Origin: Burkholderiales bacterium
Lineage (GTDB): Bacteria > Pseudomonadota > Gammaproteobacteria > Burkholderiales > Burkholderiaceae_D
Length of the DNA: 64,000 bases
Reading direction: 5' to 3'
NCBI GenBank assembly: GCA_016196925.1
Contig: JACPWS010000083.1
Span: 57,044-121,043 of the forward strand
In this document: positions 11,393 through 57,669 of the stretch, piece after piece
How the letters are laid out: each line of letters begins with the position of its first letter
Numbering within the stretch: the first letter of the stretch is position 1
The notes under the pieces: generated by a model
Seen by the model: the letters and a program-made list of their open reading frames with translations, nothing else
Told to the model about the DNA's origin: nothing
The model's database searches: none
Position numbers and translations under genes: made by a program

Positions 11393-11471
11393 ATACTCCC
11401 CCCTGTTTTTTATATTTTCGCCCTGGCGTCAGCGCAAACATTGGCGCCCCACAAATACTAGAGGGGAGTAT
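11393..11471. repeat. 79-bp inverted-repeat element, copy A (upstream of selO)
   Basis: ATACTCCCC-N61-GGGGAGTAT with internal ATACT-AGAGGGG-AGTAT; identical length and architecture to 57591-57669. Confidence 0.7.
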
Positions 11472-11590
11472 ATTTTAAGCTCCGATTACCATTGTTCGCC
11501 CCTTAGCGCACTCGCGCGCCCGTCATGAAGAAAACGCGTTTTGCCAGACTCTGGCAAAATGCATCTTATCTTCTGCATCTGACCCGGCTT

Positions 11591-13087
11591 ATGAATTCCC
11601 CCGCCCCACCCGCCGCCACAAAAACCTTGCACACCCTGACGCTAGGCAATCGTTTCGCCACCTTGCCGGCCGCCTTCTATACCGTCCTGCAGCCGACGCC
11701 GCTGCCGGCGCCGTATCTGGTGGCCCGCAGTCCGGCAGCAGCAGCCTTGTTGGACCTCGATGTCGCCGCCACATCGGAGCAGGAATTCATCGACACGTTT
11801 ACCGGCAACCGCCTGTTGCCGGGCAGCCAGCCGCTGGCGGCCGTGTATTCCGGCCACCAGTTCGGCGTCTGGGCCGGACAACTCGGCGACGGACGGGCGA
11901 TACTGCTCGGCGACGCCGCCGACCGCCAGCAACAACGATGGGAAATCCAACTCAAAGGCTCAGGCTTGACGCCCTACTCCCGCATGGGCGACGGCCGAGC
12001 CGTGCTGCGCTCGTCGATACGGGAATTTTTATGCTCGGAAGCGATGGCGGCGCTCGGCATCCCGACTTCCCGCGCACTCTGCATTACCGGCTCCGACCAG
12101 CACATCATGCGCGAAACGCCGGAAACCACGGCCGTCGTCACGCGGCTGGCGCCGAGCTTTATCCGCTTCGGCTCGTTTGAACATTGGTATTACAACGACC
12201 GCGCAGAGCAATTGCAAATCCTGGCCGATTTCGTGCTCGCGCATTATTTTCCAGACTTGCGACAACAGGCGAATCCTTACCAGGCCCTGTTGGCGGAAGT
12301 GACCCGCCGTACAGCCGAGCTGATCGCGCAATGGCAGGCCGTCGGCTTCATGCATGGCGTGATGAATACCGACAATATGTCGATACTCGGCCTGACCATC
12401 GATTACGGCCCCTACGGTTTCATGGAAGCTTACGACGAACAGCATATCTGCAACCACACCGACCGCCAGGGGCGCTACTCGTATCGCATGCAGCCGACCA
12501 TCGGCCATTGGAATTGCCACGCGCTCGGCCAAGCCCTGCTGCCGTTGATAGGCAGCGTTGCGGAAACCCAGGCGGCGCTGGCCACTTACGAACCGGCATT
12601 CCAGCGCAAGTGGGATGCTTTGCTGCATAGGAAATTCGGACTGCAATCGACACAAGAGCAAGATCAGGACTTATTCCAGCGCTACTTCGCGCTGCTGCAG
12701 GAAAGCCATGCCGACTTCACGCTGAGCTTCCGCCAGCTGAGCCACCTCGGCAATCAGCCATCGGCACAAGACGAAGCGCTGCGCGACTTATTCATAGACC
12801 GGACGGCGCTGGATCTTTGGCTGGAGAACTACCGGCAACGACTGGCCAGCGAAAACAGCGATGAACAGCAACGTCAGCAAGGCATGCTAAGCAGCAATCC
12901 CAAATATGTACTGAGGAATTATCTGGCCCAGATCGCGATAGAAAAGGCGCAAAACAAGGATTTTTCCGAGATAGAGAAATTGCTGCGCATACTCGAAAGA
13001 CCGTACGACGAACAACCGGAATACGCCGCTTACGCCAACCTGCCGCCGGACTGGGCCGGCCAGCTGGAAGTCAGTTGTTCATCCTGA
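11591..13087 (+). CDS. selO: SelO/YdiU protein adenylyltransferase (start trimmed to MNSPAPPAATK)
   Basis: YSGHQFGVWAGQLGDGRAILLG, KGSGLTPYSRMGDGRAVLRSSIREFL, MHGVMNTDNMSILGLTIDYGPYGFM. Confidence 0.95.
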   Translation: MNSPAPPAATKTLHTLTLGNRFATLPAAFYTVLQPTPLPAPYLVARSPAAAALLDLDVAATSEQEFIDTFTGNRLLPGSQPLAAVYSGHQFGVWAGQLGDGRAILLGDAADRQQQRWEIQLKGSGLTPYSRMGDGRAVLRSSIREFLCSEAMAALGIPTSRALCITGSDQHIMRETPETTAVVTRLAPSFIRFGSFEHWYYNDRAEQLQILADFVLAHYFPDLRQQANPYQALLAEVTRRTAELIAQWQAVGFMHGVMNTDNMSILGLTIDYGPYGFMEAYDEQHICNHTDRQGRYSYRMQPTIGHWNCHALGQALLPLIGSVAETQAALATYEPAFQRKWDALLHRKFGLQSTQEQDQDLFQRYFALLQESHADFTLSFRQLSHLGNQPSAQDEALRDLFIDRTALDLWLENYRQRLASENSDEQQRQQGMLSSNPKYVLRNYLAQIAIEKAQNKDFSEIEKLLRILERPYDEQPEYAAYANLPPDWAGQLEVSCSS

Positions 13088-54710: not shown

Positions 54711-57524
54711 ATGAAACGTATGCTGTTCAACGCTACGCAGCAAGAAGAGTTGCGCGTAGCCATCGTCGATGGGCAAAAGCTGATCGACATCGACATCGAG
54801 ACCGCCGGTCGCGAATTACGTAAGTCCAACATCTACAAGGGTGTCATCACCCGCATCGAACCTTCGCTGGAAGCCTGCTTCGTCAATTACGGCGAAGAGC
54901 GTCATGGCTTCCTGCCATTCAAGGAAGTCGCGCGCAGTTATTTCAAGGAAGGCATCGATGTCCGCAATGCCTCGATTAAGGATGCCCTGCGCGAAGGCCA
55001 GGAAATCATGGTCCAGGTCGAAAAAGAAGAGCGCGGCAATAAAGGCGCGGCCCTGACCTCGTTCATCTCGCTGGCCGGCCGCTATCTGGTCCTGATGCCG
55101 AACAATCCGCGCGGCGGCGGCGTATCGCGCCGCGTCGAAGGCGAAGATCGCCAGGAATTGCGCGAAACCATGGACAAACTGGATCTGCCTTCCGGCATGT
55201 CGGTGATTGCCCGTACCGCCGGCATCGGCCGCAACGTCGATGAATTGCAATGGGACCTGAACTACCTGATGCAACTGTGGCGCGCGATCGAAGGCGCCGG
55301 CAAATCCGCGCCGGGCGCCTTCCTGATTTACCAGGAATCCTCGCTGGTGATCCGCGCGATCCGCGATTATTTCCAGCCCGACATCGGCGAAATCCTGATC
55401 GACACCGACGAAATCTACGAACAGGCGCAGCAATTCATGAGCCACGTGATGCCCGACATGGTGCATCGCGTCAAGCGCTACAGCGACGATGTGCCGCTGT
55501 TCTCGCGCTTCCAGATCGAACACCAGATCGAAACCGCCTACAGCCGCACGGTGCCTTTGCCATCCGGCGGCGCGATCGTGATCGATCACACCGAAGCGCT
55601 GGTATCGGTGGACGTCAACTCGGCGCGCGCTACCCGTGGCTCCGACATCGAGACCACCGCTTTCAACACCAATTGCGAAGCGGCCGAAGAAGTGGCGCGC
55701 CAATTGCGCTTGCGCGACCTTGGCGGCCTGATCGTGATCGATTTCATCGACATGGAAAACGCCAAGAACCAGCGCGAAGTCGAAACCCGCCTGAAAGATG
55801 CGTTGCGCTATGACCGCGCCCGCGTCCAGATGGGCAAGATTTCCCGCTTCGGCCTGATGGAATTGTCGCGCCAGCGCCTGCGCCCTTCCCTGTCCGAAGG
55901 CAGCCACGTGACTTGCCCGCGCTGCAACGGCACCGGTCATATCCGCGACACCGAATCGTCCGCCCTGCAAGTCCTGCGTATCATCCAGGAAGAGGCGATG
56001 AAGGAAAACTCCGCCGCAATTCACGTCCAGGTGCCGGTCGACGTAGCCGCCTTCCTGCTGAATGAAAAGCGCGGCGAGATCCTGAAGATAGAAACGCGCC
56101 ACCGCGTTACCATCATCCTGATCCCGAACACCCATCTGGAAACGCCGCACTACAAGCTGGAACGCCTGAAGCACGACGATCCGCGCCTGGAAGAAGCGCA
56201 CGCCAGCTATGCGATGGCCGAACAGGCCGACACCGACATCGGTTACAGCAAGCGCCAGAAAGAAGACGTCAAGCCGCGCCAGGAAGCCATGGTCAAGAGC
56301 ATCACGCCGGAAACAGCGCCTATCGTGGAACGCAAGGAAGCCGCGCCGGTGGTGGCGGCGGTCGCCGCACCGGCGCCGGGCTTCTTCAGCAAGCTGTTCG
56401 GCTTCTTGTTCGGCAAGTCTGAAACGCCGGCGCAAGCAGCGACTGCAGAACCTGCGGGAGAAAAGGTGCCAGCGCGTGACCGCAATAATCGCGGCCCACG
56501 CAATCAAGGCAATGCCCAGCGCAATCGCAACCGCCGCAATCGCGACGAGCGCGAAGAGCGTCCGGCCCGCGCCGAGAAACCCGAGCAAGAGCCGGCCAAA
56601 GCGACAGTAGCGACCGAACCGCAGCGCCCGGCCAAACAGCCAAAACCGCCACGCGAACCGCGTGAAGCCCGTGAAGCTCGCGAGCCGCGCGAAGAGCGCG
56701 AACCTCAGGAAAGCCGCCGCGAGCGCCAGCAACGTCAGCGCGACGAACGCAAGGAAAGCCAGCCAGGCGAAAGCAAGGTCGAAGAGTTAATCCAAAAACA
56801 TGCCGACCCTATTCCGGTTGAAGTCATGCCTGCGGCGCCGCAACTGGAAGCAATAGAATCGGCCACGGATGCGGAAACCAGCGAGCAAAGCGAAGAGCGC
56901 CGCCGCCGTCGCCGTCGTGGCGGCCGCAATCGCAACCGCCGCGAGCGCGAAGCCGGCGAGCAAGGTGAATTGCCTATCGATCAGGTCGCGGCAGCCGAGG
57001 CCGACATGGCAGTGCAACCCACCATCGTTTCGGCGAGCGCAACGGTCGCCGAAACCGCTGTGGCAGCCGTTGCTGCAGAAGTTGCAGCGGTCGCCGTCGC
57101 GCCTACAGTCGCGGTCGCGCTAGTACCTGAAGTCGTTGCAGCGGTCGCCGAAGTTGCCGCTTCCGAAGCAGTTTCCGCTCAGGCGGTTGTTGCCACCCCC
57201 GAAGTTGTTGCCTCTCCGGTAGTTGTGGCTACTCCTGAAGTTGTTGCCGCTCCGGTAGTTGTTGCCACCTCTGAGCTGCTTGCGATTCCTGAAGCAGTCG
57301 CCACTCCCGAAGCCCTTGCGACGCCAGCGGCAATGCCTATGGATCAATTGCATACGATGTTGAATGCTGCCGGCCTCCAATTAGCCAGCACCGATCCTAT
57401 CAAGCTGCGTGCAGCCCAGGAAAGCGCAGCGCAACAAGTGCCGGCGCCACGCGTTCCGCGCGAACGCAAACCGGCCCCTGCGGTTGCCGAAGAACCGCTG
57501 GTTCAGGTAGAAACACGCCATTAA
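54711..57524 (+). CDS. rne: Ribonuclease E
   Basis: [31 protein letters not shown]1 domain; Zn-link [12 protein letters not shown]; Arg-rich and Ala/Val-rich C-terminal half. Confidence 0.96.
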
Positions 57525-57590: not shown

Positions 57591-57669
57591 ATACTCCCCA
57601 GGTAAATCATAAAAAACGACTTAACGCCACGGAAAACAAAGGCTTTCAAAATATACTGAGGGGGAGTAT
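57591..57669. repeat. 79-bp inverted-repeat element, copy B (upstream of moaA)
   Basis: ATACTCCCC-N61-GGGGAGTAT with internal ATACT-GAGGGGG-AGTAT in the same register as copy A. Confidence 0.7.

Follow-up and report, generated by a model that had tools for sequence, protein, structure and literature searches.

The 79-bp element upstream of selO is one copy of a dispersed repeat that is real, genus-specific and strictly sized, with selected half-sites, a conclusion that we regard as well supported. From sequence comparison we further propose, with a probability that we place slightly below even, that the elements are genus-specific REP-like paired operators for a predicted binding protein, most likely the CsoR-like protein P0002 (type 2, see below).

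Two copies in the window and the plan of the element

The DNA analysed (the window, 64,000 nucleotides) contains two copies of the element. The earlier note had described the first as spanning 79 bp, from ATACTCCCC at 11393-11401 to GGGGAGTAT at 11463-11471 with a sub-palindrome at 11455-11471, and had matched it to a second element at 57591-57669 of identical layout. Both descriptions were borne out, the dyad of the second copy lying at 57653-57669, and the features are as follows.

11393..11471, plus strand: element copy 1, form A, in the gap between a cheA-like gene (stop 11361) and selO, seen in the sequence and by model match
11393..11401, plus strand: left half-site ATACTCCCC of copy 1
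11455..11471, no strand assigned: right dyad ATACT-AGAGGGG-AGTAT of copy 1, operator-like (TAC-X9-GTA)
57591..57669, plus strand: element copy 2, form A, between rne and moaA, seen in the sequence and by model match
57591..57599, plus strand: left half-site ATACTCCCC of copy 2
57653..57669, no strand assigned: right dyad ATACT-GAGGGGG-AGTAT of copy 2

The model matches of copies 1 and 2 in their own genome (G000) are at G000:C32:68455-68520 (E=7.8e-13) and G000:C32:114653-114718 (E=8.5e-13), and the proteins encoded on either side are a CheA-like kinase and SelO for copy 1, and RNase E and MoaA for copy 2. The rne stop is at 57524, with a terminator-like hairpin upstream of copy 2. The distance of about 120 bp to selO given earlier holds when counted from 11471 to the ATG at 11591, but falls to 53 bp if the longest selO frame, which begins at 11525, is used. 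Within the 64-kb window the exact 9-mer occurs at the four element ends and nowhere else, and exact ATACTN7AGTAT at two places only, both in the element copies; with one mismatch allowed there were 4 sites against 0.44 expected, a number reached in 0 of 100 shuffles. A search of the window against Rfam gave no match.

Each element, 77-81 bp in total, consists of a half-site on the left (ATACTCCCC or the inverse of it), an interior of about 46 bp containing a hairpin, and the right dyad ATACT-N6/7-AGTAT, the core of which is mostly a run of G or C. At the left there is one half of a palindrome only, a half-operator, and it is inverted in about half of the own-genome copies. In form A (61 copies), ATACTCCCC stands about 62 bp ahead of the dyad start, while in form B (75 copies) the left slot is inverted, with ..GGGGAGTAT ending 46 or 47 bp ahead of the dyad; the ends are thus inverted relative to each other only in form A. 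The right core is G-rich in 55 of 61 form A copies and C-rich in 46 of 75 form B copies (p=2e-10). In both of these common combinations the strong halves are symmetric about one centre, which lies near the midpoint of the GCCCT...AGGGC hairpin inside the element. Between the slot centres there are about 62 bp, which would correspond to some six turns of DNA.

The interior had been called barely conserved, a statement that did not hold, as a species consensus (CGCCCTGTCGTCAGCGTATTTAAAGGGCTTnAAAAT) exists and the element model gives each of the two window copies about 50 bits. The related suggestion of conserved ends and spacing around a free interior is true of comparisons between species but not within a species, where the interior consensus is clear. 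Since interiors vary between species, the parts held in common are the ends and their spacing. Of the 136 own-genome copies, 69 have CGTC at the same fixed place in the interior, and many congener copies lack it. Folding predictions give form A a long hairpin whichever strand is folded (mean z about -3.1), followed by a T-run, and ATTTT is common after the dyad; for form B the predicted folds are weak (z about -1.5 and -2.1). No compensatory base changes were found in the alignments, the mutual information reflecting only neighbouring columns and form or subfamily effects.

Two minor observations concern the element sequence and its borders. In form B, weak extra conservation (cc/tttt on the left, g..cc on the right) extends about 15-25 bp beyond both ends, and perhaps represents a longer unit or flanking hairpins. 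An insertion sequence with the transposase end ...LNHRPRKCLGYKTPHEVFFGLDILPL is inserted at one interior spot, GTCG^TCAGCG, in about eight element copies and seems to target the element repeat. Its copies lie at the ends of own-genome contigs C33, C46, C58, C59, C66, C81 and C89, also in C53, and near an element in C45 and C55; it is IS30-like by eye, and its transposase fragment has no Pfam or NCBIfam match.

Distribution in the genus and placement behind genes

At least 150 element copies were found in the 3.5-Mb genome at E<=1.3e-5 with a sequence-only model, which was built from 17 copies, both window copies among them, and which diverged copies may escape. ATACTN7AGTAT alone occurs at 121 sites genome-wide, and its reversed control at 0. 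The refuting outcome named in the earlier note, a genome scan that returned only the two copies, did not arise, the scan giving 100 or more copies of strictly kept length. Of the 44 genomes of the genus, 15 have strict copies (ATACTCCCC...GGGGAGTAT); the 351 genomes from 43 further genera of the family have none, and the reversed control is 0 throughout. These searches were permissive of length (66-91 bp and 66-83 bp allowed), and the elements among the matches listed measured 76-81 bp, nearly all 77-80 bp, bar one match of 71 bp. No earlier description of the family was found in the literature searched, where, among the papers listed, the two 9-mers matched unrelated sequences only.

A simple codon-usage gene caller was used to place 136 own-genome copies, none of which overlapped a gene. 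The gaps that hold them are codirectional in 83 cases, convergent in 35 and divergent in 18. In codirectional gaps the element lies at medians of 32 bp past the upstream stop and 151 bp ahead of the next start, and 67 of these 83 copies are closer to the stop (p=1e-8). A similar 3'-end placement has been reported for REPs (PMC3733652).

Among 20 genomes, an element was found upstream of selO orthologues in the sister pair G044/G048 only, and upstream of moaA orthologues in 0 of 20. Since the orthologous regions mostly lack the element, its positions turn over between distant species. The two-site regulatory module suggested earlier is upheld only in part: the anatomy fits, and the behaviour of the ends is that of selected half-sites for a protein, but regulation of selO and moaA is unsupported. 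We have rejected a promoter module for these two genes because the copies follow stop codons and the orthologous loci are mostly without the element.

Selection on the half-sites and a candidate binding protein

An indication of selection comes from two species, G022 and G034, whose compared segments are about 92% identical. Substitutions were counted at 17 element pairs, orthologous in a two-way comparison, for which detection in one of the two species was sufficient, and amounted to 6/323 (1.9%) in the half-sites, 54/782 (6.9%) in the interior and 597/5112 (11.7%) in the flanks; the inclusion of one-species detections reduces the ascertainment bias in these counts but does not fully remove it. 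The half-sites are slower than both the interior (p=4e-4) and the flanks (p=2e-10), and since they change less than either, selection appears to keep them at individual loci. No indel carrying an element was found in the 192 kb aligned between these species, and no empty site in the compared segments of G022/G034 and G031/G033.

The right dyad suggests what might bind there. The RcnR operator is TACT-G6-N-AGTA (PMC7055735) and CsoR proteins recognise TAC-X9-GTA with G-tracts (PMC3902906); the dyad, as TAC-X8/9-GTA around a G-tract, matches this published operator. A PF02583 search of the genus returned two protein types, of which type 2 scores more weakly. The type-2 protein P0002 (104 aa; G000:C49:25752-25970, minus strand) is the sole PF02583 member found in the own genome. 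TAC-X8/9-GTA is present in the promoter of the type-2 gene in 24 of 24 genomes examined, including genomes without elements, and the full ATACT-N6/7-AGTAT in 19, the rest being one or two bases off. In the own genome this promoter dyad is ATACTCAGTAGAGTAT, 66 bp ahead of the ATG and without a G-tract. Next to the type-2 gene, arranged tail to tail with it, is a radical SAM gene (named by eye) and not an efflux gene. Type 2 matches the CsoR and InrS structures weakly and scores far below the cut-offs of the NCBIfam CsoR-family models, and since by eye part of its metal-site residues seems to be missing, it is doubtful that the protein is a classic sensor. As a separate observation, ATACTCCCCC, in codons for ADTPP, occurs at the start of the type-2 gene itself, 72-73 bp past the promoter dyad at most of the 24 loci; this sequence is absent where species use other codons.

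The gene and the elements also tend to occur together. Dyad counts in the 44 genomes showed 15 to be enriched (27-208 sites each), all with type 2, and 18 of 18 genomes without type 2 to have 3-10 dyads, near control level. Dyad-rich genomes thus make up 15 of the 26 with type 2 against 0 of the 18 without (p=5e-5, uncorrected for kinship). A RAYT tree served as marker of the species relationships. In it, the species without the gene fall into two distinct clades, each with support, with G007 (65% complete) in addition; both clades lack elements, and one is nested among element-rich species. Kinship leaves about two independent loss events behind this correlation, and one gene-less genome, G035, has a single element-like match despite the missing gene. 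About 11 genomes carry type 2 with few dyads (13-18 in a 6-Mb clade, 2-9 in others). Since type 2 is found with few dyads in some species, the dependence, if real, would run from the element to the protein.

The reading that we favour gives the elements no role at selO or moaA in particular. Each copy would pair a half-operator, ATACTCCCC or its inversion, with a full ATACT-N6/7-AGTAT dyad that usually has a G-tract; these two sites, separated by about 62 bp or some six turns of the helix, would flank the hairpin-forming interior. The type-2 CsoR-like protein would bind these elements, and its occupancy of 100-200 sites could give it a chromosome-wide role, for which insulating or stopping transcription behind genes and organising the nucleoid are candidates. 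The fuller evolutionary version, in which a CsoR-family metal sensor turned into a chromosome-wide DNA binder as its operator pairs spread to 100-200 gene-end places and were kept there by selection, is possible, though we hold it to be rather doubtful. Like the operators of CsoR, RcnR and FrmR (PMC7055735; PMC3902906), the elements have a TAC-X8/9-GTA dyad round a G-tract and two sites together, and the own genome has a family member with a similar dyad in its promoter. Unlike those operators, they number 100-200 copies rather than a few and lie behind genes rather than at promoters, their second site is about 62 bp off and half conserved, and the protein is not beside an efflux gene. Their stop-proximal placement is not that of an operator at the promoter of the gene it regulates.

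REP-like repeats are widespread in bacteria, and what keeps and binds them is mostly unclear. The present family offers a concrete test case, with selected half-sites of a known operator class, a drifting interior, a candidate single-copy protein whose gene has a matching promoter site, and two lineages without protein and repeats alike. If the binding is true, a metal-sensor fold would be linked to chromosome-wide organisation or 3'-end insulation.

Alternative explanations and related repeats

The elements might instead be REPINs, non-autonomous hairpin repeats moved by a RAYT (Y1/HUH transposase), the ends serving transposase recognition and any host role being secondary. The own genome has one Y1_Tnp gene, which matches a REP-associated NCBIfam family below cut-off and is followed by an element at 79 bp, and G044 and G048 have element-like ends beside theirs. 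The long form A hairpin on both strands, the intergenic position of 136/136 placed copies, most of them behind genes, and an interior similarity within species that implies past amplification are all consistent with such an origin. However, RAYT is present in 43 of the 44 genomes, in 41 at >=57% identity, and only 15 are rich in elements. In most congeners the repeat that flanks it is another one, TATGTCCCCAATT...GACACTGACCCT, and a RAYT-adjacent element was seen only in G000 and, apparently, in G044 and G048, being absent beside RAYT in most element-bearing genomes. The GTAG tag is missing, no fixed position having GTAG/CTAC in more than 13 of 136 copies (GGAG is present inside the half-site GGGGAGTAT). 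Moreover, RAYT does not explain the selection of half-sites after insertion, and no element differed in presence over the 192 kb. We therefore consider the REPIN reading unlikely; RAYT as the sole explanation was downgraded because it occurs in 43/44 genomes with other flanking repeats, although it may have spread the copies. The general likeness to REP, REPIN and BIME repeats with RAYT (PMC3116915; PMC3733652) is close, since these too are short, intergenic, palindromic repeats of more than 100 copies in genomes that encode a RAYT, with inverted ends around a spacer, hairpin potential and gene-end placement. The elements differ in having no GTAG tag, a fixed total length, a left end in either orientation, a RAYT link that is not kept across species, and half-sites selected at individual loci.

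That the element acts as RNA, a bidirectional 3'-end hairpin stopping transcription or protecting transcripts, agrees with the median position 32 bp past stop codons and with the form A hairpin, its T-run and the ATTTT that commonly follows the dyad. It is nevertheless improbable, as form B, the larger group, folds weakly, the exact ATACT/AGTAT letters are kept across species, no compensatory changes were found, and window copy 2 is already preceded by a terminator-like hairpin. Less probable still are sites of an unknown recombinase or DDE transposon, as in a MITE or attachment-site family. Two sites of 16-17 bp, with a 6-7-bp spacer, at a fixed distance do resemble recombinase sites, and element clusters border variable gene content in G022 and G034. 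Against this, no longer element that combines these ends with a gene of its own was noticed in the flanking sequences retrieved, the variable segments do not stop exactly at the element, no empty site was seen, and the match at the regulator promoter and the co-loss would be left unexplained. The very small TIR-bounded element that the earlier note had offered, taken as a simple transposon, is weakened because the left end occurs both ways round and no presence/absence difference was found in 192 kb.

Two other classes were rejected. CGTC-tagged palindromic repeats (PMC3733652) share the fixed-position CGTC of 69/136 copies, but in the element it sits in the interior loop, not at a stem end, and is not general. 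Integron attC sites are similar as imperfect inverted repeats with conserved ends, a free interior and gene-end location, and some element clusters have variable genes between copies; however, the elements are single dispersed copies, and their consensus ends ATACTCCCC/AGTAT misfit the GTTRRRY/RYYYAAC boxes.

In most congeners the RAYT gene, beside gltB, is flanked downstream by inverted repeats of a second type, TATGTCCCCAATT...TTTAATTTGACACTGACCCTAAT, which may be that RAYT's own repeat. At one locus (G022:C1:64-76 kb; G034:C5:64-73 kb), several same-orientation elements stand between small genes that differ almost wholly between these species, which are 92% identical elsewhere. The locus is cassette-like and variable. 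In a further pair of G022/G034 segments, two elements bound a three-gene block that both species have, and the genes beyond it are different.
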